Notes: generated by a model not told the origin, from the sequence alone. A stretch of DNA of 64,000 nucleotides from Alphaproteobacteria bacterium (GCA_021774335.1 JAJFJD010000002.1:124001-188000); one strand, 5' to 3'. Positions 8,739-31,043 are shown, counted from the first letter of the stretch. Made by a program: numbers and translations.

Positions 8739-9722
8739 ATGATCCGCTTCGCCGCGATTTCCATTCTGACAGTTCTGGTTTTCTGCGTTTCCAGCGCCGG
8801 GGTGGCGCAGGCGTCGGACGCGCGTAATCCATTCGCTCCGAAATCTACTGAAACTCAAACGTCGGCGGCTCCGCCCGGTGCGCTCGAGCGGTCCTATCGC
8901 GGGCTTCTGCTTAAGATTGCCACGGTGCAGGGCGACCTGAACAAGGATTTGCACGCCAAGCTGAAGGAAATCGAGACGACGGGGGCGATCCTGCCGGCGC
9001 TGATTGTGATCGGCGTAGCATTCCTATACGGCGTCTTTCACGCCGCCGGGCCGGGCCACGGCAAGTTCATCGTCACCAGTTATTTCCTGGCCCGTGATGG
9101 GCCCGTGTCGCACGGCATCATCATGAGCGGTTTGATCGCGCTGACGCAGGCGCTTTCGGCAATCATCATCGTCTTCGTTCTGGTCTTCGCGATGGGGTTT
9201 GGGCGCATTCAGGTGCTGGGCTATGCCGTCACCATCGAACTCGTCAGCTACGCGCTAGTGATCCTGCTCGGGCTCTACATGGCCTGGGGGGCGTTCCGCG
9301 GTAAGGATTGCGATCATTCGCACGGACCGGGCGACAACCATCATGGCCACGATCACGACCACCCGGACGAGGATGGCCCCTGGTACCGGCAAGGCCGCGA
9401 CATGATCGTCGCGGCGGTTGCCGCGGGCATCCGGCCGTGTAGCGGCGCGATCATCCTGTTGCTGTTCACCATGGCGAACGGGCTGTATGCCGTCGGTATC
9501 TTTGGCGCGTTGGCCATGGCGTTCGGTGTGGCGATCACCGTATCGGTCGTTGGAATGCTGGCCATCGGCGCGCGGCGCACGATCATCCATGCCACCGACG
9601 CCCACGGTGGAGTACAGCCGCTGATCTTGCGTGGGGTAGGGATGCTGGGCGCGCTATTCGTGGTGACGATCGGCGCGTTGCTGTTCCTGGCCGCCTTGGA
9701 GCGGGTTCCCGGTCTTTACTAG
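8739..9722 (+). CDS. NicO-family nickel/cobalt transporter (RcnA/HupN-like)
   Basis: A 327-residue membrane protein with a cleavable-looking N-terminal signal segment. It carries the family signature HAAGPGHGKFIVTSYFLA, six or so membrane spans, and a His/Asp-rich cytoplasmic or periplasmic loop (CDHSHGPGDNHHGHDHDHP) that is typical of Ni/Co efflux proteins of the RcnA type. Pairing with a DUF1007 protein supports metal export or homeostasis. The 3' end overlaps the convergent CDF gene by 4 bp. Nickel versus cobalt specificity cannot be read from sequence. Confidence 0.88.
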   Translation: MIRFAAISILTVLVFCVSSAGVAQASDARNPFAPKSTETQTSAAPPGALERSYRGLLLKIATVQGDLNKDLHAKLKEIETTGAILPALIVIGVAFLYGVFHAAGPGHGKFIVTSYFLARDGPVSHGIIMSGLIALTQALSAIIIVFVLVFAMGFGRIQVLGYAVTIELVSYALVILLGLYMAWGAFRGKDCDHSHGPGDNHHGHDHDHPDEDGPWYRQGRDMIVAAVAAGIRPCSGAIILLLFTMANGLYAVGIFGALAMAFGVAITVSVVGMLAIGARRTIIHATDAHGGVQPLILRGVGMLGALFVVTIGALLFLAALERVPGLY

Positions 9723-10366
9723 TCCGCGTTGCCCGCCGACGCCTCGGCATCGGCGCGGTCCATGCGCAACTCCGTCGTCGCCTGGCGGATGATCTTCACC
9801 GACGACTGCAGGAACAGTGCCGCCATCGCGGCGGCGACGATCAGATCGGGCCAGGCGCTGCCGGTCACCACCACCACGCCGGCGGCGGCGATCACGGCAA
9901 GGTTGCCGATCGCGTCATTGCGGCTGCACAGCCAGACCGAGCGCACATTCGAATCGCCGTCGCGGAACTTCAGCAGCAACAACGCGCTGACAACGTTTGC
10001 GGCGAAGGCGAGGAAGGCCACGCCGCTCATCATCACTACGTTGGGCACACCGAGCACGAAAGTCTGGTAGATCGTCCACCCGAGAACGCCGACACCCATT
10101 GCGGCGAGCGAGACGCCCTTCATCAACGCTGCCGTCGCCCGCAGACGCACCGACCTGCCGATGACATAGAGGCTGATCCCGTAGGTCAGCGTATCGCCGA
10201 GGAAATCGAGGGCGTCTGCCTGGAGAGCCGTGGACCCGGAGGCGGCACCGGCCGACATCTCGATGACGAACATTACCGCGTTGATGGCAATGACGATCCA
10301 GAGGACCCGCCGGTAGGCCGGCGACGATCCGTCGAAGGACACGTTGTGGTCACAGCAACCCGCCAT
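9719..10366 (-). CDS. Cation diffusion facilitator-type transporter, short form
   Basis: A 215-residue membrane protein: only the transmembrane core of a CDF transporter, with no C-terminal cytoplasmic metal domain. The CDF metal-site pattern is visible as ALQADALDFLGD (helix 2, DxxxD) and SRNDAIGN (helix 5, NDxxxN). Such short forms are often controlled by a divergent MerR regulator and move Zn, Cd or Co. Here the MerR gene starts 93 bp away on the other strand, and a matching MerR promoter faces this gene. The N-terminal MAGCCDH motif could also bind metal. Confidence 0.88.
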   Translation of the reverse strand: MAGCCDHNVSFDGSSPAYRRVLWIVIAINAVMFVIEMSAGAASGSTALQADALDFLGDTLTYGISLYVIGRSVRLRATAALMKGVSLAAMGVGVLGWTIYQTFVLGVPNVVMMSGVAFLAFAANVVSALLLLKFRDGDSNVRSVWLCSRNDAIGNLAVIAAAGVVVVTGSAWPDLIVAAAMAALFLQSSVKIIRQATTELRMDRADAEASAGNAD

Positions 10367-10417
10367 AAAGGGCTCCGGAAGGACGGTTTCGGACAGGTCT
10401 TGCTTTCTAGGGTGGGA

Positions 10418-10448
10418 TACTAATATCTACAGTGACTGTAGGTTCAAG
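10418..10448 (-). promoter_or_regulatory. MerR-type promoter/operator driving the CDF transporter
   Basis: On the minus strand a -35 box TTGAAC (10448-10443) and a -10 box TAGTAT (10423-10418) are separated by 19 bp. The spacer holds a perfect dyad CTACAGT-C-ACTGTAG (10442-10428). The over-long 19-bp spacer with a dyad inside it is the hallmark of promoters untwisted by metal-bound MerR proteins. Confidence 0.88.
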
Positions 10449-10459
10449 AGGAAATCGAC

Positions 10460-10915
10460 ATGGACGATAAAGCCCTCTCGATTGGCGTTCTGGCGCGGGA
10501 AACCGGCTGTAAGGTGCAGACGGTCCGCTATTACGAGCAGGTCGGCCTGATGCCGGCACCGCTGCGGACGTCCGGTAATCAGCGCCGCTACGGCCCGGCG
10601 CATATCGCCCGCCTCGGGTTCATCCGGCACGCACGCGAGTTGGGGTTTCCGCTCGACCAGATCCGCGAGATGCTGGCCTTGAGCGACGACCCGGCGCGTT
10701 CCTGTGCCGATGTGGACCGCATCGCCAGCGAACATCTAGCGGCGGTGGAGGCGCGGATTGCCCGCCTGAACGCGCTGAAAACCGAGTTGGAGCGGATGGT
10801 TCAGGGCTGCCGTCATGGACAGGTCGGCGACTGCCGTGTCATCGAGGTTCTGTCGGACTATACCCACGACCATTGCCTCACCCCCGACCACGGCAAACCG
10901 GAAAGTCGGGCGTAA
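10460..10915 (+). CDS. MerR-family metal-responsive regulator (for CDF transporter)
   Basis: A 151-residue MerR protein: N-terminal winged helix with SIGVLARETGCKVQTVRYYEQ, dimerisation helix, and C-terminal cysteine loop GCRHGQVGDC plus a C/H-containing tail (THDHC). The cysteines and histidines suggest a Zn/Cd/Pb-type sensor. It is divergent from the CDF gene, and the operator between them fits a MerR promoter. The RBS AAGAGGAAA precedes the ATG. Confidence 0.9.
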   Translation: MDDKALSIGVLARETGCKVQTVRYYEQVGLMPAPLRTSGNQRRYGPAHIARLGFIRHARELGFPLDQIREMLALSDDPARSCADVDRIASEHLAAVEARIARLNALKTELERMVQGCRHGQVGDCRVIEVLSDYTHDHCLTPDHGKPESRA

Positions 10916-10922
10916 GACGGCG

Positions 10923-11141
10923 CTAGCCCGGTTCGTCGACGCTGCAGCACCCGCCGCCGGTCTGGATCGGCGGGCAGGGGACGTCGCCGTAGGAGCAGAA
11001 GACGCAGCAATCGCCTTGCTTCGGCTTGAGCAGCGTCTTGCAGGACCGGCATTCATGGAAATAGACGCAGGCGTTCGTCGGCATCTCCTCGCGGCTTTGA
11101 TGGCCGCAGTCGGGGCAGGTGATCGTCGAGAAAAGGTCCAT
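10923..11141 (-). CDS. GDCCVxC domain-containing small protein
   Basis: A 72-residue cysteine-rich protein with 12 Cys. Two zinc-ribbon-like pairs (CPDC; CRSC) are followed by the family motif GDCCVFCSYGDVPCPP and a final CC. This family is usually found next to mercury transport genes, and some relatives carry selenocysteine in the motif; here all positions are TGC cysteine codons. Its ATG overlaps the merF stop by one base (TGATG), so it is translationally coupled to merF. It probably binds Hg(II) or another thiophilic metal in the cytosol; that is inference from context. Confidence 0.9.
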   Translation of the reverse strand: MDLFSTITCPDCGHQSREEMPTNACVYFHECRSCKTLLKPKQGDCCVFCSYGDVPCPPIQTGGGCCSVDEPG

Positions 11142-11347
11142 CAATTTGCCTCCCGGCGTTTCCACAGCGCACAGGCCGTTAAGCCAAGGAAGATCGCCAG
11201 CGACGGCAGCAGCACGTAGTCGAGAATCCCGACCAGCGACGACAGGCCGATCGCGCCGAACAGGATGACCAACACGGGTGTGAAGCAGCAGATCGCGGCT
11301 ATGACGCTGCCGATGATGCCGGTGCGCAGAAGGTTCTTGTTGGTCAT
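11141..11347 (-). CDS. merF: MerF-like mercury uptake membrane protein
   Basis: A 68-residue protein with two membrane helices. The first carries the vicinal cysteine pair in ICCFTPVLVILFGAIGLS, the diagnostic MerF/MerT Hg(II)-binding site. The C-terminus is shorter than in classical plasmid MerF and lacks the second Cys pair usually found there. MerF carries Hg(II) across the inner membrane to a reductase, but no merA is visible nearby. It is first in a two-gene unit with the GDCCVxC protein, behind a MerR-type promoter. Confidence 0.87.
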   Translation of the reverse strand: MTNKNLLRTGIIGSVIAAICCFTPVLVILFGAIGLSSLVGILDYVLLPSLAIFLGLTACALWKRREAN

Positions 11348-11410
11348 GGGCCGGTCGGTCCGATCTCAGGGTTCGTGGGATTGGCTGCCGTCTTGAACGG
11401 GCTGGCAAAC

Positions 11411-11441
11411 ACCATACAATCTGTAGCGACTACAGATTCAA
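11411..11441 (-). promoter_or_regulatory. MerR-type promoter/operator driving merF
   Basis: On the minus strand TTGAAT (-35, 11441-11436) and TATGGT (-10, 11416-11411) are 19 bp apart. A perfect 9-3-9 dyad, with left arm AATCTGTAG at 11418-11426 and right arm CTACAGATT at 11430-11438, occupies the spacer and edge. The architecture is the same as the CDF promoter about 1 kb away, but the arms differ, so the two MerR proteins probably have separate operators. Confidence 0.88.
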
Positions 11442-11452
11442 GGGCGAAATTC

Positions 11453-11896
11453 ATGACGGAAAAGAAATCGTTGGCGATCGGCGAGGTGTCGCGGACATCC
11501 GGCTGCAAGATCGAGACGATCCGCTATTACGAGCGAATCGGTCTGCTTTCCCCGCCGCCGCGCACCGCCGGGCGTCACCGGCTGTATTCGCGGGACCATG
11601 TGAAGCGGTTGGTCTTTATCCGCCGCGGCCGAAACCTGGGATTTTCGCTCGATGAAATTCGCAGCCTGTTGGGCCTGACGGGTGAGGGGGCGCCGAATTG
11701 CGAGCAGGTACGCGAGATCACGCTGGCGCATGCCCATGATATTCGGCAGAAAATCGACGATCTGGAGCGAATGGACCGGGCATTACGGCAACTGGCCGAG
11801 CAATGCGAAGACGGTGAAGCGATGGTTTGCCCGGTCATCGAGGCGCTTTTCACCGCCAAGGAGGATAGGGCGGCGGCGGACCGCGACAGCCCCTAA
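11453..11896 (+). CDS. merR: MerR-family regulator of the merF unit
   Basis: A 147-residue MerR: LAIGEVSRTSGCKIETIRYYERIGLL winged helix, long dimer helix and C-terminal loop EQCEDGEAMVCPVIEAL. With the Cys near residue 82 (APNCEQV) it has a three-cysteine set comparable to the Hg(II) site of classical MerR, though the last two Cys are 8 rather than 9 apart. It is divergent from merF with the operator in between. The ATG at 11453 was preferred over an upstream in-frame start at 11375 because that one would run through the operator. Confidence 0.88.
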   Translation: MTEKKSLAIGEVSRTSGCKIETIRYYERIGLLSPPPRTAGRHRLYSRDHVKRLVFIRRGRNLGFSLDEIRSLLGLTGEGAPNCEQVREITLAHAHDIRQKIDDLERMDRALRQLAEQCEDGEAMVCPVIEALFTAKEDRAAADRDSP

Positions 11897-14852: not shown

Positions 14853-16253
14853 ATGAGCGCATCCAAACCGCCCCTGCTTTTTAACGCGACGCGCGATTTG
14901 GCGCGGTTCTCGGCGACCCTGCAATTCGACGACCTCCCGGCCGAGGTGATCGCCCACATCAAGCTGTCGATCCTGGACAGCATCGGCGTGTGCCTCCACG
15001 GTGTGACGCTGCCGTGGACGCAGCATGTGCAGGATATGGTGGAAGCTGAAGGTGCGCGGGCCGAGGCGTCGATTTTCGGGAGCGGCAAGAAGACATCGGC
15101 CGCCAATGCCGTGCTGGTCAATAGCACCGCGGGACATGCGTTCGAACTCGACGATATTCACAAGGAATCAATCATCCACCCCGGGTCCTTGGCGCTTCCC
15201 GTGGCGCTGGCTCTGGCCGAGGCGCAAGGCGGGGCCAGCGGGCAGGCGCTCATCACGGCGATCGTGGCGGGGTATGAGGTTGGCGCCCGGGTGGGCAATG
15301 CCGCGACCGTGCGGCTGCTGTTGAACGGGTTCCATCCGCAGGGGACATCGGGCGCGTTTGTTGCCGCCACGACGGCGGCGCGGATGCTCGGCCTCGATCC
15401 CGACCAGACGCTGCACTGCCTTGGCATCGTTGGTTCCCAAGCCGGCGGCCTCATGGCGGCGCAGGAAGGGGCAATGGTAAAGCGGCTGCATTCCGGCCGT
15501 GCCGCCCAGAGCGGAATCTATTCGGCGCAATTGGCCCGGCGCGGGTTCACCGGCGTCGAGGATGTGCTGGAAGCCGCCTACGGCGGCTATCTGGTGACGC
15601 ATTCCGACAACCCGGCGCCGGAGAATCTCACCGCCGGGCTTGGCAGTGTGTGGGAAGTGTCGAATGTCGGGTTCAAGCCGTACGCGGCCGTTACCAGCAT
15701 CCACACGGCGTTGGACGCGCTGCTTCAGATCATTCGCGACAATGGCCTGAGTGCCGACGATATCGCGGCGGTCGATGTGGCGATCAGCGAGGCGACCTAT
15801 GTGCATTGCGCCTGGGAGTACAAAGCGCAGGGGCTGACCGCGGCTCAGATGAATTTGTATTTCGGCCTGGCGATGATCGCGATCGACGGCAACGCCTTCG
15901 TCGAACAATACCGGGAAGACCGGCTGCAGGACCCGGCGGTCCTGGCTTTCATCGGCCGGATCACCGCGCGGATCGACCCGGAGATCGAGGCGATGGGCGC
16001 GGCCTTCCGCCATGCCGCACGTGTATCGGTGCGAACCCACGACGGACGGAGCTTCGATGCGGAAATCCTCAACCGGCGCGGCAGCGCGGAGAACCCGCTA
16101 TCCGCCGAGGATGTCGAGCGCAAGTTCCGGGATGTGGTGCGATCCTGTTTGCCGGCGGCGCAGATCGAAGACCTGATTGGCTTGGTGCAAGGGCTGGAAA
16201 GTCAGTCGACTGTCGACGACCTGATCCGGATCATGGCTGCGCCCCCGGCCTAG
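14853..16253 (+). CDS. MmgE/PrpD family protein
   Basis: A 466-residue all-helical plus lid-domain protein matching MmgE/PrpD along its length (SILDSIGVCLHGV, HAFELDDIH, HPGSLALPVALALAEA, HPQGTSGAFVAATTAARMLGL, GGLMAAQEGAMVKRLHSGRAAQSG). The family contains 2-methylcitrate dehydratase and cis-aconitate decarboxylase-like enzymes, but many members act on other polycarboxylates. It is next to an NAD-isocitrate-dehydrogenase-like gene (convergent, 4-bp overlap), so a role in tricarboxylate or tartrate-like acid metabolism is possible. Confidence 0.88.
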   Translation: MSASKPPLLFNATRDLARFSATLQFDDLPAEVIAHIKLSILDSIGVCLHGVTLPWTQHVQDMVEAEGARAEASIFGSGKKTSAANAVLVNSTAGHAFELDDIHKESIIHPGSLALPVALALAEAQGGASGQALITAIVAGYEVGARVGNAATVRLLLNGFHPQGTSGAFVAATTAARMLGLDPDQTLHCLGIVGSQAGGLMAAQEGAMVKRLHSGRAAQSGIYSAQLARRGFTGVEDVLEAAYGGYLVTHSDNPAPENLTAGLGSVWEVSNVGFKPYAAVTSIHTALDALLQIIRDNGLSADDIAAVDVAISEATYVHCAWEYKAQGLTAAQMNLYFGLAMIAIDGNAFVEQYREDRLQDPAVLAFIGRITARIDPEIEAMGAAFRHAARVSVRTHDGRSFDAEILNRRGSAENPLSAEDVERKFRDVVRSCLPAAQIEDLIGLVQGLESQSTVDDLIRIMAAPPA

Positions 16254-17269
16254 GCGGATAAATTGTCCTTGATCGCGGCGCTGATGTCGCGCGTCATTCC
16301 CGTGCCGCCGAGGTCGCCGGTTAGATTCTCTTTCCCACTCAGCAGCGTTGCCTGGATCGCCTCGCGCAGTTTTGTTGCCAGGTCGGTTTGGTCGACATGG
16401 TCGAGCATCAGTGCGGAGGCCATGAGCAGCGCGCAGGGGTTCGCCTTGCCTTGCCCGGCGATGTCCGGCGCCGATCCGTGGACCGCTTCGAAGATTGCGG
16501 CGTCCTCGCCGATGTTGGCGCCTGGCGCCAATCCGAGCCCACCGGTGATGCCGGCGGCGAGATCGGAGAGGATATCGCCGAACAGATTGGTCGTGACCAG
16601 GATGTCGAACTGCTCGGGGTTCATGGCGAGCTGCATGGCGCAGGCGTCGACGATGCGGTCGTCGACCTCGACCCGGCCTTCGTATTCCTTTGCGACCGCT
16701 TGCGATTCCTCCAGGAACAGCCCGCTCAATGCCTTTAGAATGTTGGCCTTGTGGACGATGGTGACGCGCTTGCGGTTGTGGCGGACGGCATAGTCGAAGG
16801 CGAACTCGGCGATGCGGCGGCATTCGACCCGGGTGTTGTAGCCGGAGGAATAGGCGACCGCTTTCGGATCGTCGCCGCGTGCTTCGAAGCGTTCTTCGAC
16901 CGCATACAGGCCTTCCAGGTTCTCCCGCATGATGACCAGATCGACGCCCTCGAAACGGCCGCCGGGCACAAGTGTTTTGGCCGGGCGGACATTGGCGAAG
17001 AGTTCGAATTCCTGCCGCAGCCGAACATTGATGGACTTGAAGCCGCCGCCGATCGGGGTTGTCAGCGGCCCTTTCAAGGCAAGGCCGGTGCGCTTGATGC
17101 TGTCGAGCGTTTCCTGCGGCAGGGGGTCGCCGTCACGGTCAATCGCGGCAAGCCCCGCGAGTTGCGTATCCCATTTGAAGGGGGCGCCCAGGTGATCGAG
17201 GATATCGACCACGGCATCGGTAATTTCCGGGCCGATTCCGTCGCCTGGTAACAGCGTTGCATCGATCAT
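16250..17269 (-). CDS. Isocitrate/isopropylmalate dehydrogenase family (NAD-IDH-like)
   Basis: A 339-residue beta-decarboxylating dehydrogenase. Visible are LLPGDGIGPEI, the substrate loop SINVRLRQEFELFANVRP with its conserved arginines, MRENLEGLYAVEE, the YNTRVECRRIAEFAF segment, the catalytic Lys in TIVHKANILK, the Asp metal ligands in FGDILSDLAAG, and AIFEAVHGSAPDIAGQGKANP. The SINVxLR loop resembles monomer-type NAD isocitrate dehydrogenases more than LeuB, but tartrate- or homoisocitrate-type activity cannot be excluded. A GTG start at 17287 (six codons earlier) is possible; neither start has a strong ribosome site. Confidence 0.85.
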   Translation of the reverse strand: MIDATLLPGDGIGPEITDAVVDILDHLGAPFKWDTQLAGLAAIDRDGDPLPQETLDSIKRTGLALKGPLTTPIGGGFKSINVRLRQEFELFANVRPAKTLVPGGRFEGVDLVIMRENLEGLYAVEERFEARGDDPKAVAYSSGYNTRVECRRIAEFAFDYAVRHNRKRVTIVHKANILKALSGLFLEESQAVAKEYEGRVEVDDRIVDACAMQLAMNPEQFDILVTTNLFGDILSDLAAGITGGLGLAPGANIGEDAAIFEAVHGSAPDIAGQGKANPCALLMASALMLDHVDQTDLATKLREAIQATLLSGKENLTGDLGGTGMTRDISAAIKDNLSA

Positions 17270-17359: not shown

Positions 17360-17956
17360 TTATTCGCCCCATAAACACCAGGTTGCCAGAAGCGGCGCGG
17401 ATGCCGAGCGCATCGCATGCAGGATGTTCGGCGGGTTATAGACGATGCCGTCGAGGCCCGGTTCCCGCCAGGGGCCATCGTCCTGCCGCCATGCACCGGG
17501 AGAGAGTGGGACATAGACTTCCTCTGGCGGATGCCGATGGTCGGGATAGTGCACGTCCGGGGCCAGCAGGCTCACCCCGATCCGCACATTCGGGCACTCC
17601 TCAAGGCCGCCGGTTCCGATGATCGTCGCGTTGGCATGGCCGGTCGCGAAGCGTTCGTCGACATCGTCCGATCCCGGCCGCGTATACCACGCGAGATTGG
17701 GGGCAAGGTCGGCCAGCGCCGAGGCGTGTTCGGTGCCCGAGCGACCGGCCTGCGTCGCGGCGAGAAGCGCGTCCTCCAGATAGGCGCAAGCCGGCACCTG
17801 TTTTGGTTGGCGAGGGTTGGAGCTACCGGATTCTTCGAGAGCCGCGAATATCCGTCCGGCAGCTAGTGCCGCGGGATCGGACGCGTGGGTGCGTGCCTGT
17901 ATCGTGGCATGCATGGAGGCGAGGAAGGCCTGCAATGTCGCGCTACGTTCCGGCAT
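17360..17956 (-). CDS. DddQ-like cupin DMSP lyase family protein
   Basis: A 198-residue cupin resembling DMSP lyases, which split dimethylsulfoniopropionate to dimethyl sulfide and acrylate. The metal motif is VHYPDHRHPPEEVYVPLSPG, with a second motif NPPNILHAMRS. H142, E146, Y148 and H180 are spaced 4, 6 and 38 apart, matching the zinc ligands I recall for Ruegeria DddQ (H125, E129, Y131, H163); Y137 falls on its catalytic Tyr120. The cupin-DLL superfamily also holds non-lyases, so activity is likely but not proven. The ATG at 17956 has AAAGGAAGG upstream. It is last in the osmolyte ABC transporter operon, 27 bp after the ATPase gene. Confidence 0.78.
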   Translation of the reverse strand: MPERSATLQAFLASMHATIQARTHASDPAALAAGRIFAALEESGSSNPRQPKQVPACAYLEDALLAATQAGRSGTEHASALADLAPNLAWYTRPGSDDVDERFATGHANATIIGTGGLEECPNVRIGVSLLAPDVHYPDHRHPPEEVYVPLSPGAWRQDDGPWREPGLDGIVYNPPNILHAMRSASAPLLATWCLWGE

Positions 17957-17983
17957 TTCACGCCTTCCTTTGTGGTTCAATTC

Positions 17984-19183
17984 TCAGTCGCGGTTCAGCG
18001 TGCCGTCGGCCAAGACGCGAGCCAAGTCTTTCGCCGACAGAACCCCGAGAAATCCGCCATCCTTGGAAACCACCGGTACGGGAAAGGCCGATTCTAGCGC
18101 TGCGGGAAGGGCATCCTGCAGGGACCTGTCCGGGCTCAGCATCGGGCCGGCTTCGGCGATGTCCGCCAGGGCAGGGGCGGTGCTGCCGTTTCCTCTGCCC
18201 GCTTGCGCCAGGGCGTCTTGGGTCACCACGCCCCGGTAGCGACCATCCTCAAAAAGGTAGCCGAACGTCTCGGTCCAACTGCGTATTTGTACCTGCGCGT
18301 CGGCAAGGGTGCTTGCCGTGAGTTGGCAGGCAGGCGGTTTCATAACCGCACCAACGGTGAGGGCGCGCGCGCGGTTAACGTCGCGGACGAAAGCCTCCAC
18401 GTAACTGTCTGCCGGCTCGAGGAGAATTTCCTCCGGGCGGCCAACCTGCGACAGGGCGCCGTCCTTGAGGATGGCGATCCTGTCGCCGATTCGTAGCGCC
18501 TCGTCCAAATCGTGTGTGATGAACACGACGGTCTTCCGCAGCGTGCGGTGCAGCTCAAGCAACTGCTTCTGCAAGTCCGAGCGGATCAGGGGGTCGAGGG
18601 CGGAGAAGGCCTCGTCCATCAGCAGGATTTCCGGATCGGTACAGAGCGCCCGGGCCAGACCCACGCGCTGCTGTTCGCCGCCGGATAACTGCGCCGGATA
18701 CTGGTCTTCGTAGCCCTCCAGGCCGACGGTCCGCAGCCAATCCCGCGCCTTGTCGTTCCGGTCCGTGGCCGCGACCTGCTGTATCGCGAGGCCGAACGCG
18801 ACATTTTCCAGGACGGTACGATGCGGCAGCAAGCCAAACCGTTGGAACACCATCGACATCTTGTGGCGCCTGAGGTCTTGCAATTCCTCCTGCCCCAGAC
18901 CGGTCACGTCGACGCCATCGACGGTAATCGTGCCTTCGGTCGGCTCTATCAGGCGGTTGAAGTGGCGGATCAGGGTGGATTTGCCGGACCCGGACAGGCC
19001 CATGATGACGAAGATGGTTCCGCGCTCGATATTGAGATTGATATCGCGCAGGCCGACCGTGTGGCCGGTCTCAGCCAGGATGTCCTCTTTCGAGCGGCCG
19101 TCGCGAACCATCGGCATCACGGTCTTGGGCGATACGCCGAATACTTTGTAGAGGTTCTCGATGCGGATCAGCGGCTCAGTCAC
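17984..19183 (-). CDS. proV: Glycine betaine/proline-type ABC transporter ATP-binding protein
   Basis: A 399-residue ATPase. Walker A GLSGSGKST is at residues 62-70, followed by the signature LSGGEQQRVGLARAL, Walker B ILLMDEAFSALDP and the switch His (VVFITHDLDEA). A C-terminal ~120-residue region carries CBS-like repeats, as in ProV/OpuA osmosensing ATPases. The GTG start at 19183 (AAGGGA upstream) overlaps the permease 3' end by 8 bp. It energises import by the neighbouring permease and binding protein. Substrate is a quaternary ammonium or sulfonium compound; the DddQ-like gene next door points to DMSP. Confidence 0.93.
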   Translation of the reverse strand: MTEPLIRIENLYKVFGVSPKTVMPMVRDGRSKEDILAETGHTVGLRDINLNIERGTIFVIMGLSGSGKSTLIRHFNRLIEPTEGTITVDGVDVTGLGQEELQDLRRHKMSMVFQRFGLLPHRTVLENVAFGLAIQQVAATDRNDKARDWLRTVGLEGYEDQYPAQLSGGEQQRVGLARALCTDPEILLMDEAFSALDPLIRSDLQKQLLELHRTLRKTVVFITHDLDEALRIGDRIAILKDGALSQVGRPEEILLEPADSYVEAFVRDVNRARALTVGAVMKPPACQLTASTLADAQVQIRSWTETFGYLFEDGRYRGVVTQDALAQAGRGNGSTAPALADIAEAGPMLSPDRSLQDALPAALESAFPVPVVSKDGGFLGVLSAKDLARVLADGTLNRD

Positions 19184-20075
19184 CGTGCATCCCTTGCAGG
19201 TGCCGCTGACTCCGCCTGGCATAGGCCTGGGAAACGCGGTCGAAAGTAATCGCGATGGCGACGATGGCGAGGCCGTTGAGCAGCCCCATCGTGAAATACT
19301 GGTTGGTGATCGATTTTAGTACAGGTTGCCCCAACCCTTGGACGCCGATCATCGAGGCGATGACCACCATGCCCAGCGCCATCATGATTGTCTGGTTGAT
19401 ACCCGCCATGATCGTGGGCATGGCCAACGGTAACTGCACGCTCAACAGCCGCTGCATCGGCGTGGCGCCGAAGGCGACGGCGGCTTCCTGGACATCCCGG
19501 TCGACCAGCCGGATGCCCAAATTGGTCAGCCGGATCAGCGGCGGGATGGCGTAGACGACGACGGCGATGACACCGGGAACCTTACCGATGCCCAAAAGCA
19601 TGACGACCGGGATCAGGTAAACGAACGCCGGCATGGTCTGCATGATGTCCAGGACCGGCGTGACTGTGTTCTGCACCCGATCGGACCGCGCCATCATGAT
19701 GCCGATGGGAACGCCGAGCGCGATCGACATCAATGTTGCCACGGTGATGATGCTGAGCGTCCGCATCGTGTCGTCCCACATGCCGAAATACCCGATCAAC
19801 AGGAAGGCGAGGGTGACGCCCATGGTCAATTTGACCGAGCGGCTTACCCAGTAGGCGAGACCGACGAGGACGGCGAGCACCAGAAGCCAGGGCGTGGCGA
19901 GCAGGAGCTTCTCGAACCACACCAGGAGGTGCAACAGCGGGCTGAAGAACGCCTCGACGCCATCACCGTATGACCGGGAGAAATCCCTATAGGCGCCATC
20001 GAGGAGTTTGCGGAGCGCGACGAGGTCGGTCCGGTCCAATTCCGGGAATTCGGAAATCCATGATTGACTGGCCAT
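19176..20075 (-). CDS. proW: ABC transporter permease, ProW/OpuA type
   Basis: A 299-residue inner-membrane permease with about six spans. It carries the binding-protein-dependent transport signature (EAAVAFGATPMQRLLSVQLPLAMPTIMAGINQ) that docks to the ATPase. Conserved blocks such as DIMQTMPAFVYLIPVVMLLGIGKVPG and IGVQGLGQPVL are those of glycine betaine/proline permeases. It lies between the binding protein (76 bp upstream) and the overlapping ATPase gene. Confidence 0.93.
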   Translation of the reverse strand: MASQSWISEFPELDRTDLVALRKLLDGAYRDFSRSYGDGVEAFFSPLLHLLVWFEKLLLATPWLLVLAVLVGLAYWVSRSVKLTMGVTLAFLLIGYFGMWDDTMRTLSIITVATLMSIALGVPIGIMMARSDRVQNTVTPVLDIMQTMPAFVYLIPVVMLLGIGKVPGVIAVVVYAIPPLIRLTNLGIRLVDRDVQEAAVAFGATPMQRLLSVQLPLAMPTIMAGINQTIMMALGMVVIASMIGVQGLGQPVLKSITNQYFTMGLLNGLAIVAIAITFDRVSQAYARRSQRHLQGMHGD

Positions 20076-20151
20076 CGCTTTGGTCCTCGTCGGCGGCTAA
20101 TCCAGAAAGGATATTATCGCACGATTCTAGCGAGGACCCTGTATCGTCCGC

Positions 20152-21162
20152 TTACAGGCCTGCAACGGCAATTCGAACCTTGCCGGCGATATTTGCGGGA
20201 ACCCAGCGTGTCCAGATCATTTCATGGTTCTTGAGGAAATGAACCGCGGCGGTTTCTCCATCCGCCTGGTTTTCCCCGATCCAGACGAGCAAACTATTCA
20301 TCGTTGCGTTGGTGAATGCCCGCTTCGTTAGATAGCCGTATGCCTTCGGCGCCCTGCGAGCGAACTTTTCCGTGGTTAGCGTTATGACGCGTGCTGTCGG
20401 ATACATGCTCGGTTTCGGATCGCTGCATTCGGCCTGGCTAATGCAGGATTCCCAATGCGCCGTATCCACGCCCACGCCGAAATCCACCCGCACCATCTTG
20501 TATTTGCCCAAGATGGGCGTCGGCGACCAGTAATAGCCGAACCAGGCTTTGCCACGTTCATACGCCTTGGCGATAGATCCATCCAGGCCTGCCGCCGAGC
20601 CGGGGTCGACCAGTTCGAAGCCGGAATCGGCAAGCTTTAGTGCCTTGAACAGGTGGCCTGATGATATCTGGCAATTCCAGCCGGAAGGACACCCATACAG
20701 GGCGGATTTATCGGGATCTTCGGGATGTTTGAACAATTTCGCATTGCGTTTAATGCCCTCGATCGTGGCGAGGGATGGATCCCGGTCGACCATATATTTC
20801 GGTACCCAGAAGCCTTCGACGCCGCCGTCGGACAGTGATTTTCCGGCGATCCGCAGGCGTTTCTCGGCAACGCCTTGCTTCAGCGCGTCGGCGAACGAGT
20901 TGCTCCAGAGTTCGGGCGCGATATCGGGTTGACCTTTCTCGATCATCGATGTGCCGGTCGGCATCGTGTCGCCGGGTATGAGCTCGGCGGCGCAATTGTA
21001 TCCATGCTTCAGGATCAGGCGATCCACATGCGCCATCAGCGTGGCGGACGGCCAGTTCATGTCGGAAATCGTAACCTTGTCGCACGCTGCGCTGGCTGGG
21101 CTCGAGATCGACAAGCCCGTGACGCCGGCAATCAATGCCAAAACGGATATAAATCGTTTCAT
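20152..21162 (-). CDS. proX: Glycine betaine/proline-type substrate-binding protein
   Basis: A 336-residue periplasmic binding protein with a clear signal peptide (MKRFISVLALIAGVTGLS, cleavage after ASA near residue 25). It resembles the OpuAC/ProX family (VTISDMNWPSATLMAHVD..., LIPGDTMPTGTSMIEKGQPDIAPELWSN). Aromatic residues that could form a cation cage (several W/Y in the GYYWSPTPILGKYKM segment) suit a quaternary ammonium or sulfonium ligand. It is the first gene of a four-gene operon that ends with the DddQ-like lyase. The start at 21162 was chosen by the signal peptide; longer in-frame starts add charged residues. Confidence 0.9.
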   Translation of the reverse strand: MKRFISVLALIAGVTGLSISSPASAACDKVTISDMNWPSATLMAHVDRLILKHGYNCAAELIPGDTMPTGTSMIEKGQPDIAPELWSNSFADALKQGVAEKRLRIAGKSLSDGGVEGFWVPKYMVDRDPSLATIEGIKRNAKLFKHPEDPDKSALYGCPSGWNCQISSGHLFKALKLADSGFELVDPGSAAGLDGSIAKAYERGKAWFGYYWSPTPILGKYKMVRVDFGVGVDTAHWESCISQAECSDPKPSMYPTARVITLTTEKFARRAPKAYGYLTKRAFTNATMNSLLVWIGENQADGETAAVHFLKNHEMIWTRWVPANIAGKVRIAVAGL

Positions 21163-28262: not shown

Positions 28263-29195
28263 TCAGTTGGAATTCAGCAACGACGGTGGGATCAGGTCTT
28301 TTGCGGCGACTTTCGGTTTGCGCCGCAGGAGTGTGACCTCGATCCGCCGGTTTTCGACGGCATCCGCGGATACTTTGTGCAGGGGAGCGCGTTCCGCGTT
28401 TCCGCGTACCGCGGCGAAACGCGCATCGGGTGTGCCAAGCGCCACCAGCGCGTTGCGACCGGCGTAGGCCCGTTGAATGGAAATCTTCCAGTTTGAGAGC
28501 CCTTGGCTGGCAGTCTCGTCGTTCCGTGACGTATGGCCTGAGACTTGAATCTTGTTAGGCAGGCGGGAAACGACTTCGAAAATGACTTTAACCAGTTTCT
28601 TCCCGTCCTCATTAAGCTCGATACCGCCTTGGTCGAAAAGTGGCTGTTTTTTCCGGTCCATCAGGCGGATGCGCAATCCTTCGCGCGTCACGTCGATGGC
28701 GACCGACTTGTAGAGATTGAGGAGTTCCGGAATCTGCTCCATTGACCGTTGAATGGCGATCTTGGCCGCATTCATTTGGCGACTTTCATCGCTGTTGTTC
28801 GGCAGCTTTTCCTGGTTGGGCGTTTTGGTCGATTCCGACGGATCGCCCCGTGAGATGTCATCCTCATTGGTGGTCACCACCTGCGTACGGACGTTCACAG
28901 CTTTCGATGTGGTCTGGCCGGGCGCTTCGATGGGGCCGGGATCGGTAGCGGAGATGCCACCGAATACACCGCCGCTACCGGTCGATCCGCTGGTCGCGCC
29001 AACCGGCTCGAAATAGTTCGAAAGGCCCTGTTTTTGTTCTTCGGTTGTGGCGTTCAGCAGCCAGAGCAAGAGAAAGAACGCCATCATCGCGGTGACGAAA
29101 TCTGCGTAGGCCACCTTCCACGCGCTGCCGCCATGGACCTCCGGCTCGATCTTCTTCTTGACGACAATGATCTCGCGATCTGAATTACCAGCCAT
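28263..29195 (-). CDS. motB: Flagellar motor stator protein MotB, second copy
   Basis: A 310-residue MotB-type protein. It has a cytoplasmic basic tail, a single membrane helix with the proton-accepting Asp (YADFVTAMMAFFLLLWLLN, D32), a periplasmic linker and a C-terminal OmpA-like peptidoglycan-binding domain (VSGHTSRNDETASQGLSNWKIS..., NRRIEVTLL). It lies 5 bp after another full-length MotB gene in the motA operon. Both copies keep the Asp, so both could form ion channels with MotA. Confidence 0.9.
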   Translation of the reverse strand: MAGNSDREIIVVKKKIEPEVHGGSAWKVAYADFVTAMMAFFLLLWLLNATTEEQKQGLSNYFEPVGATSGSTGSGGVFGGISATDPGPIEAPGQTTSKAVNVRTQVVTTNEDDISRGDPSESTKTPNQEKLPNNSDESRQMNAAKIAIQRSMEQIPELLNLYKSVAIDVTREGLRIRLMDRKKQPLFDQGGIELNEDGKKLVKVIFEVVSRLPNKIQVSGHTSRNDETASQGLSNWKISIQRAYAGRNALVALGTPDARFAAVRGNAERAPLHKVSADAVENRRIEVTLLRRKPKVAAKDLIPPSLLNSN

Positions 29196-29200
29196 TGTGC

Positions 29201-30154
29201 TTACCGACCCGCCGCGACGTTGGTTTTGCCGGGTACCGCCGCGGCTTTACCGATCGGTTTGTTCAACAGGAGAACGCTGATCCTGTTGTTGCGCATCGTT
29301 TTCGGAAAACTGGGATGTACGGGCACCGTATCGCCTCTGCCCACGATCCGGGAGAATCGTTTGGCGGCGACCCCGAAATTGATCAGTGTGGCGCGCGCGT
29401 TGTCGGCGCGGTCGCCGGATACCCGCCACTTCGAGTTGGCTGCTTGCGCCGTTTGCGGCGCGAGATCCGTGTGTCCCGTGATGGCGATGTGATGTGGCAG
29501 CTTCGATACGATTGAACCGATGATGGCGAGCAGATGTTCACCGCGACCGGAAATTTCCGAGCCATTGTTCTTGAACATCTTCAGTTTCACTCGATCGAGC
29601 AACTGAATGCGCAATCCGTCCGGCGTGTGTTCGACGATCAGGCTATCCTGCATCTTCGCGAGCTCCGGAATATCCTGGATCGCCTGATTGATCGCAGAGA
29701 TGACCTTGCTGAATTCCTTTTTATTTTCTTCGTCGGCTTGACGTTGATGCTCGCCATGTTGGTAGCCGCCGCCGGTTGATTCGGGGTTCTTGTGGCGACC
29801 CTCGGAGGCGCCGGCGTCGCGGCTGCCGAATGTCGGGATCGGTACGGTAATCCGAGGTGGCGAACCGGCCGATCGCAAGGCGCCCTCGGCTGCCATGGCA
29901 AGCCCTTTCAACACGCCGCCGCTGCCGGTCTGTTGCTCTGACACGCCGATCGGTTCAAAGAAATCGGAGATTCCCTGTTTCTTGTCTTCGGTCGTTACGT
30001 TGAGAAGCCAGAGCAGCAGAAAAAAGGCCATCATCGCGGTAACGAAATCCGCGTAGGCAACCTTCCAGGCACCGCCGTGAGGTTCCTCCGGCAGCATGAC
30101 CTTCTTGCGAAGGACGATGGGCCCTTGTTCTGCGCCCTCTAGGGTGTCCGCCAT
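29201..30154 (-). CDS. motB: Flagellar motor stator protein MotB, first copy
   Basis: A 317-residue MotB with D36 in the membrane helix YADFVTAMMAFFLLLWLLNV, a Gly/His-rich linker (STGGGYQHGEHQRQ) and an OmpA-like domain (ITGHTDLAPQTAQAANSKWRVSGDRADNARATL). It is 25 bp downstream of motA and 5 bp upstream of a paralogue. MotA4B2 stators couple ion flow to torque. The two MotB proteins differ mainly in the periplasmic linker and the peptidoglycan-binding domain. Confidence 0.92.
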   Translation of the reverse strand: MADTLEGAEQGPIVLRKKVMLPEEPHGGAWKVAYADFVTAMMAFFLLLWLLNVTTEDKKQGISDFFEPIGVSEQQTGSGGVLKGLAMAAEGALRSAGSPPRITVPIPTFGSRDAGASEGRHKNPESTGGGYQHGEHQRQADEENKKEFSKVISAINQAIQDIPELAKMQDSLIVEHTPDGLRIQLLDRVKLKMFKNNGSEISGRGEHLLAIIGSIVSKLPHHIAITGHTDLAPQTAQAANSKWRVSGDRADNARATLINFGVAAKRFSRIVGRGDTVPVHPSFPKTMRNNRISVLLLNKPIGKAAAVPGKTNVAAGR

Positions 30155-30179
30155 GACAATCTATGCCGGCTGGCTGCCA

Positions 30180-31043
30180 CTACGTTGCGGCCGGAAGGTT
30201 CTGGGTGGCCTCTTCGAGTTCCATAAAGCTCGGCCGGGTGTGGCTCTGGAGCACCTTGCGGGCGAACTCGATCGAGACGGCGGGGGCGTAGCCCTGCAGA
30301 TGCGCAAGCAGGCCTGCCTTAATACACGTGAAATAGACGCTGTCGTCTTGCTGGTTGCCTTTTAGCGCCGTCGCCATCGGGGCGGCAAAGCCGTAACACA
30401 TGAGGATTCCCAGGAAGGTTCCGACCAGTGCGGCTGCGATCAAGCCGCCGAGCACCGCCGGCGGCTCGGTGATCGAGCCCATTGTCTTGATGATACCCAT
30501 CACCGCGGCGACAATACCGAGACCCGGGAAGGCTTCGGCCAGGGTCTGGATGGCGTGGCTGACCTTGTGCTCTTCGCCGTGATGGGTTTCCAATTCCATG
30601 TCCATCAGCGCTTCAAGCTCATGCGGGTTGTCGGTGCCAAGGGTCATCAGACGGAGATAGTCGCAGAGGAACTCCACCGCATGATGGTTCGACATGAATT
30701 TCGGGTACTGCGCAAACAGGTCGCTGTCTTCGGGATTCTCGACATGCGTTTCGAGCGCTAGCATGCCCTTGGTCTTGGCCAGCTTGAAAATCTGATACTG
30801 CAGGGAAAGCAGTTCTAGATAGTCATCTTTCTTGTATTTCGGCCCCTTGAGGATCGACATAAAGCCGCCCATGGTCTGGCCGAGCACCGCCTTGGAATTG
30901 GCAATGATATAGGCGCCCACGCCGGATCCGCCGATGATGACGAATTCGAACGGTTGCCATAAAACACCGAGCTTGCCGCCCATCGCGACATAACTGCCGA
31001 TCACGCAACCGGTGACCACAAGGCTTCCGATAATTAAGAACAT
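30180..31043 (-). CDS. motA: Flagellar motor stator protein MotA
   Basis: A 287-residue inner-membrane stator subunit with four spans. The large cytoplasmic loop carries the charged FliG-contact residues, and the late helices include the conserved prolines (GLGIVAAVMGIIKTMGSITEPP, LVGTFLGILMCYGFAAPM). It heads an operon with two motB genes. A perfect CtrA box lies about 60 bp upstream of its start. Confidence 0.95.
   Translation of the reverse strand: MFLIIGSLVVTGCVIGSYVAMGGKLGVLWQPFEFVIIGGSGVGAYIIANSKAVLGQTMGGFMSILKGPKYKKDDYLELLSLQYQIFKLAKTKGMLALETHVENPEDSDLFAQYPKFMSNHHAVEFLCDYLRLMTLGTDNPHELEALMDMELETHHGEEHKVSHAIQTLAEAFPGLGIVAAVMGIIKTMGSITEPPAVLGGLIAAALVGTFLGILMCYGFAAPMATALKGNQQDDSVYFTCIKAGLLAHLQGYAPAVSIEFARKVLQSHTRPSFMELEEATQNLPAAT

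Follow-up and report, generated by a model that had tools for sequence, protein, structure and literature searches.

We analysed a 64,000-nucleotide stretch of DNA from Alphaproteobacteria bacterium (GCA_021774335.1 JAJFJD010000002.1:124001-188000), referred to here as the window and numbered from its first letter. On its minus strand lies a string of genes for a betaine-type ATP-binding cassette (ABC) importer followed by a cupin. An earlier note, made from the sequence, had proposed this string as a candidate operon for the import and cleavage of dimethylsulfoniopropionate (DMSP). The following features were found:

20152 to 21162, minus strand: periplasmic substrate-binding protein (SBP) of the OpuAC/ProX type, DmpX-like (PF04069, OpuAC, E 1e-58; RnDmpX, 7yle, E 3e-67), with pocket residues W T W E W N Y W
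19176 to 20075, minus strand: ABC permease of the ProW/ChoW type (PF00528; best NCBIfam matches TIGR03416 and ProW, both below cut-off)
17984 to 19183, minus strand: ABC ATPase of the ProV type with a CBS region (TIGR01186 proV, 382.8 bits against a cut-off of 326.6; PF00571, CBS)
17964 to 17971, minus strand: ribosome-binding site of the cupin gene, AAGGAAGG, read directly from the sequence
17360 to 17956, minus strand: DMSP-lyase-like (DLL) cupin of 198 amino acids (PF16867, E 1.7e-44, 152 bits against a cut-off of 27)
16250 to 17269, minus strand: isocitrate/isopropylmalate dehydrogenase-family gene, Iso_dh (PF00180), possibly the final gene of the string

The complete importer described in the earlier note was confirmed, as an OpuAC-type SBP with the signal peptide MKRFISVLALIAG, a BPD permease and a ProV ATPase were found in a single gene string, the composition of a ProXWV-type importer. 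The genes are tightly packed. The GTG start of the ATPase gene overlaps the permease stop by 8 nt, and the cupin ATG at 17956, preceded by AAGGAAGG, is separated from the ATPase stop by 27 nt. Iso_dh starts 90 nt downstream of the cupin gene, and its counterpart in the sister species G001 occupies the same place and is 94% identical. Indeed, the whole order SBP-permease-ATPase-cupin-Iso_dh is identical in that species. The sister cupin is 67% identical to that of the window with a dN/dS of 0.17–0.27, indicating a genuine protein on which purifying selection acts. This layout suggests co-transcription; scans for promoters and terminators gave numbers no better than chance.

To characterize the cupin, we compared its sequence and an AlphaFold (AF2) model (mean pLDDT, the predicted local distance difference test, 93.8) with known structures. 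A Foldseek search of the PDB revealed that the six best matches were all DddQ (template modelling (TM) score 0.67–0.76, 19–25% identity), after which the scores fell clearly to small cupins. The window cupin and the solved DddQs (RlDddQ, 4la2; R. pomeroyi DddQ, 5cu1; RnDddQII, 4b29) share the whole-length fold, PF16867 membership and six active-site residues. Counted from the ATG at 17956, Y137, H140, H142, E146, Y148 and H180 align with Y120, H123, H125, E129, Y131 and H163, the active-site residues given for RlDddQ (PMC4437653). The H-x-H-x3-E-x-Y motif, the distal His and the upstream Tyr are thus all present; the earlier note had numbered every one of these residues except H140, and its numbers were exact. 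However, the six residues were common to 66 of the 68 PF16867-family rows, across all clades sampled, and they are therefore a feature of the family rather than a sign of DMSP cleavage. The clade that holds the window cupin carries the signature H107/N109/N174, whereas the DddQs have Y or F, then Y, W or C, and then H at these positions. The NCBIfam scan assigned no name to any of the DLL cupins scanned.

The position of the cupin was examined further in a maximum-likelihood tree of the 68 DLL-cupin rows, in which DddQ was the only characterised clade placed at full length and DddL, DddW and DddU were absent. The window cupin fell within a 31-row clade (support 100/100) from which characterised enzymes are absent. 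The solved DddQs, three in number, formed a group of their own (100/99) nested in a clade of 14 rows, the rest of which were rhizobial and other cupins. Approximately unbiased (AU) tests rejected both the joining of the window pair to the DddQs and its placement inside the 14-row clade (p = 0.0016 and 3e-6), values not to be read finely, the groups having been defined after the first tree was seen and the DddQ rows being long branches. By the earlier note's own account, a position outside the lyase-active clades would tell against its proposal, and with respect to DddQ the tree goes that way. The protein is best classed among the DLL cupins, in a clade yet to be characterised, and not as a DddQ. 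The failed grouping lowers the case that the protein is a DddQ; it may nevertheless work like one. Relatives of the Rhizobium tropici type (L033-L041) belong to the DddQ-side clade and not to that of the window, and in these Rhizobium loci the cupin gene directly follows that of a conserved protein roughly 1,330 amino acids long.

We then considered which ligand the importer might carry. The best solved relative of the SBP was RnDmpX with DMSP bound (41% identity). This protein belongs to DmpXWV, a system with the same SBP-permease-ATPase set, and DmpX has been reported to be DMSP-specific (PMC10030565). When the DmpX pocket residues W35, T64, W84, E113, W152, A153, Y200 and W202 were compared, seven of the eight were identical in the window SBP, including the equivalents of E113 and Y200. 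The difference is at A153, which hydrogen-bonds the DMSP carboxylate in DmpX (PMC10030565) and is replaced by N. In a tree of SBPs, built without an N-betaine SBP of known ligand, RnDmpX and the window SBP belonged to a single family, with TmoX outside it, and within this family to separate subgroups, each well supported. In addition, the permease accompanying true DmpX orthologues at L159 and L160 was only 42–43% identical to the window permease. The window SBP is the only OpuAC-type protein in its genome. Genome G390, by comparison, has three SBP paralogues, each in a different catabolic neighbourhood. At L161 the SBP gene follows electron-transfer-flavoprotein (ETF)-like, PurU-like and FolD-like genes together with those for an 853-amino-acid oxidase-like protein and a GbdR-like regulator, and at L162 it lies beside those for an oxidoreductase, a DapA-like protein and an aldehyde dehydrogenase (ALDH). 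Unscanned genes near the G390 paralogues were judged from their sequence starts. The position of E113 is occupied by Q or S in the SBPs of the G390-paralogue clusters. Nearly all SBP homologues sampled have the same pocket, and with the paralogues sitting in other catabolic neighbourhoods the window pocket, as read from its residues, fits DMSP yet remains compatible with N-betaines. Other DmpX-like SBPs and their importers occur in glycine-betaine-type clusters, so the specificity of the window SBP is not certain.

The neighbourhoods of the cupin clade in other genomes provided a second line of evidence. A recurrent arrangement (L131, L208, L209 and L210) combines a 678–683-amino-acid flavoprotein of the old yellow enzyme (OYE)/trimethylamine dehydrogenase (TMADH) type, a window-clade cupin, a TetR-like protein, a ProC-like reductase and a DmpX-like ABC importer; the order OYE flavoprotein-cupin, TetR-ProC-SBP-permease-ATPase was present in G390, G645, G451 and G509. 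L208 additionally holds genes for ETF, formaldehyde dehydrogenase (above cut-off), an esterase, GFA and a DapA-like protein. At L207, which lies outside the class, the flavoprotein-cupin pair is joined by ProC and ETF-like genes, and the contig stops just past the cupin gene. MTTB is found near a window-clade cupin at L211 and adjoining one at L213. At L132 and L133 such a cupin stands beside a polyamine-type ABC importer, a dimethylarginine-hydrolase (DDAH)-like gene and formate-tetrahydrofolate ligase (FTHFS). The clade and DmpX-like ABC genes thus recur inside N-betaine catabolic clusters, a kind of cluster that includes those with an OYE/TMADH-type flavoprotein and ETF and the GbdR-regulated glycine betaine genes. 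Taken with formaldehyde detoxification, the ProC-like reductase, MTTB and DDAH/FTHFS, this suggests N-methyl-betaine catabolism, with the clade's neighbours pointing to quaternary amines and their N-methyl and one-carbon metabolism. From its family and neighbours, the flavoprotein would be a demethylase; an N-methylproline demethylase of Sinorhizobium, StcD, is named in PMC12239276. Because the OYE clusters are homologous to one another, they represent a single association that was retained or spread and should not be counted five times. Searches of the literature for a cupin in stachydrine or quaternary-amine clusters yielded no description of this arrangement, although coverage of subscription papers was poor.

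Two further cupins were noted at these and related loci. A second DLL cupin at L208:6401-7093 (G645), beside the ETF genes, has lost most catalytic residues (F, H, Q, R, F; F at the distal His). In Gluconacetobacter tumulisoli (L031:2524-7833), a 50% identical cupin gene follows ALDH, FAD-oxidoreductase-like and major facilitator superfamily (MFS)-like genes, and DMSP is not expected in that habitat.

Cleavage of DMSP would yield dimethyl sulfide (DMS) and acrylate, and we searched for genes that could handle the latter. The source genome is a draft (5.4 Mb, 63 contigs, 7% contamination), so absences from it are weak. Consistent with the earlier note, which reported no acrylate-CoA ligase next to the operon, a tblastn search with one AMP-binding protein as query gave no AMP-binding match in the window. 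The note had placed acrylate handling elsewhere, and candidates do lie outside the operon: an AcuI/YhdH equivalog (464 bits against a cut-off of 297), unlinked to it, and a PrpE-like ligase (750 bits, below the cut-off of 955). A genome search, run without a positive control, gave no DddP-like match. No stand-alone DmdA candidate was found among the five GCV_T proteins of the genome; one adjoins gcvH and gcvP and is hence GcvT, and the other four are long fused proteins. The window itself holds an MmgE/PrpD-family gene (14853-16253) beside the operon on the opposite strand, missing at that place in the sister species, and a PrpB-like gene (971-1882, below cut-off) 16 kb away. These propionate-type functions could take up acrylate carbon, and neither is specific. 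Also in the window, judged by sequence starts, are a heavy-metal-resistance-like group at 9719-11896 (transporter-like, two MerR-like regulators and short membrane-protein-like open reading frames) and three flagellar or proton-driven motor-like genes at 28263-31043, two MotB-like and one MotA-like.

Collectively, these data lead us to favour, with moderate confidence, an operon that imports and processes an onium zwitterion, either an N-betaine or DMSP/dimethylsulfoxonium propionate (DMSOP), in which a cupin of an uncharacterised clade would use DddQ-like metal and tyrosine chemistry. This reading is based on the tight string conserved in the sister species, the whole-length DddQ fold with its six residues, an SBP closest to DmpX, and the second importer-cupin arrangement in other genomes. 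Several observations weigh against it. Many other clade members lack neighbours of the N-methyl or one-carbon kind, among them L137 and L156, the closest relatives outside the genus, which also have no adjoining importer. Genus g3, of the same family, holds the importer and a clade cupin on different contigs, which limits their linkage to one genus. Finally, the window operon differs from the N-betaine clusters in lacking an adjacent flavoprotein demethylase or ETF, and the genome contains no close orthologue of the flavoprotein (best match 31%), so the window pathway cannot equal the full cluster seen elsewhere.

A rival to this reading, an operon dedicated to DMSP or DMSOP in which the cupin is a true lyase releasing DMS and acrylate, with unlinked AcuI and PrpE-like enzymes handling the acrylate, appears rather doubtful. 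It follows the earlier proposal, of which the conserved importer-cupin string and the kinship of the SBP to DMSP-bound RnDmpX held up, whereas the cited residues proved to lack lyase specificity. The reported specificity of DmpX speaks for it, as does the retention of the E113 and Y200 equivalents in the window SBP where the SBPs of the flavoprotein clusters have Q at E113, and so do the fold and catalytic residues of the cupin, although that catalytic set is not diagnostic, the H107/N109/N174 signature departs from the DddQ residues and the AU tests place the protein outside the DddQ clade. DmpX orthologues 55–63% identical to RnDmpX are encoded in G118 and G232, the genomes that hold the nearest cupin relatives. 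The two acrylate candidates would fit as well, but AcuI is common and unlinked here, and the searches for DddP-like and stand-alone DmdA proteins were negative. In G390, a clade cupin is directly followed by a DddP-like protein of the M24 family (L131:11058-12353) that keeps the spacing of the DddP metal and catalytic residues (D295, D297, D307, Y366, H371, D377, E406 and E421); its score of 366 is below the DddP equivalog cut-off of 600. We had considered this G390 cluster of DmpX-like ABC genes, cupin and DddP-like protein as strong evidence for DMSP, and it was weakened by that score and by the flavoprotein, ETF and formaldehyde genes of L207-L210. With non-diagnostic residues, a separate clade and relatives whose neighbours are of the N-methyl or betaine kind, DMSP cleavage by the window cupin is possible, as one of two live substrate hypotheses.

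At the other extreme, the importer might serve general osmoprotectant uptake, the cupin being a passenger whose substrate is some unrelated metabolite or which at least leaves the imported ligand untouched. The importer is the sole OpuAC-type one in the genome, close SBP relatives in other families have unrelated neighbours such as exopolysaccharide genes, clade cupins have many different neighbours, and importer and cupin are unlinked in g3. We nonetheless regard this as improbable: the cupin gene starts 27 nt after the ATPase gene in the window and holds the same place in the sister species, and in several other genomes clade cupins are again found with DmpX-like ABC genes, in another arrangement.

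Under the favoured onium-zwitterion reading, the DmpX/ProX-type SBP would capture the zwitterion in its aromatic cage, and the permease and ATPase would bring it into the cell. The cupin would act on it in the cytoplasm, with a metal held by H142, E146 and H180 (plus H140/Y148). In DddQ, metal and tyrosine remove the alpha proton of a carboxylate that bears a leaving group on its beta carbon (PMC4437653), and from the conserved catalytic set we infer the same first step here: the substrate carboxylate would sit at the metal while Y148 and/or Y137 takes the alpha proton. The resulting carbanion would then undergo beta-elimination or react in some other way. With DMSP or DMSOP as substrate, the products would be DMS or DMSO (dimethyl sulfoxide) and acrylate; known cupin lyases cleave DMSOP (PMC10686828). 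If the substrate is an N-betaine, its carbanion could either expel an amine or take up a proton again, giving the epimer. Since genes of N-demethylation and one-carbon metabolism accompany the clade in relatives, we rank an N-betaine substrate slightly ahead of DMSP/DMSOP for the clade; for the window operon the two are close. More tentatively, the window clade might represent a new betaine-catabolic enzyme class on the DMSP-lyase fold, abstracting the alpha proton of N-betaines with metal and tyrosine. Such an enzyme could be a betaine lyase, or a C-alpha epimerase feeding a flavoprotein demethylase, and many soil and marine 'DMSP lyase' annotations would then belong to it.

These possibilities matter for the wider family. 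Pfam names PF16867 matches DMSP lyase, and surveys could count them as sources of climate-active DMS. With a large clade that combines intact lyase residues and betaine-catabolic neighbours, such counts could be inflated, and the clade would define a candidate enzyme activity for which the substrates to try are obvious. If, on the other hand, the clade does cleave DMSP, the window would hold importer and lyase in a single operon, and the range of DMSP lysis would widen to clusters in other Pseudomonadota seemingly built for N-betaines.

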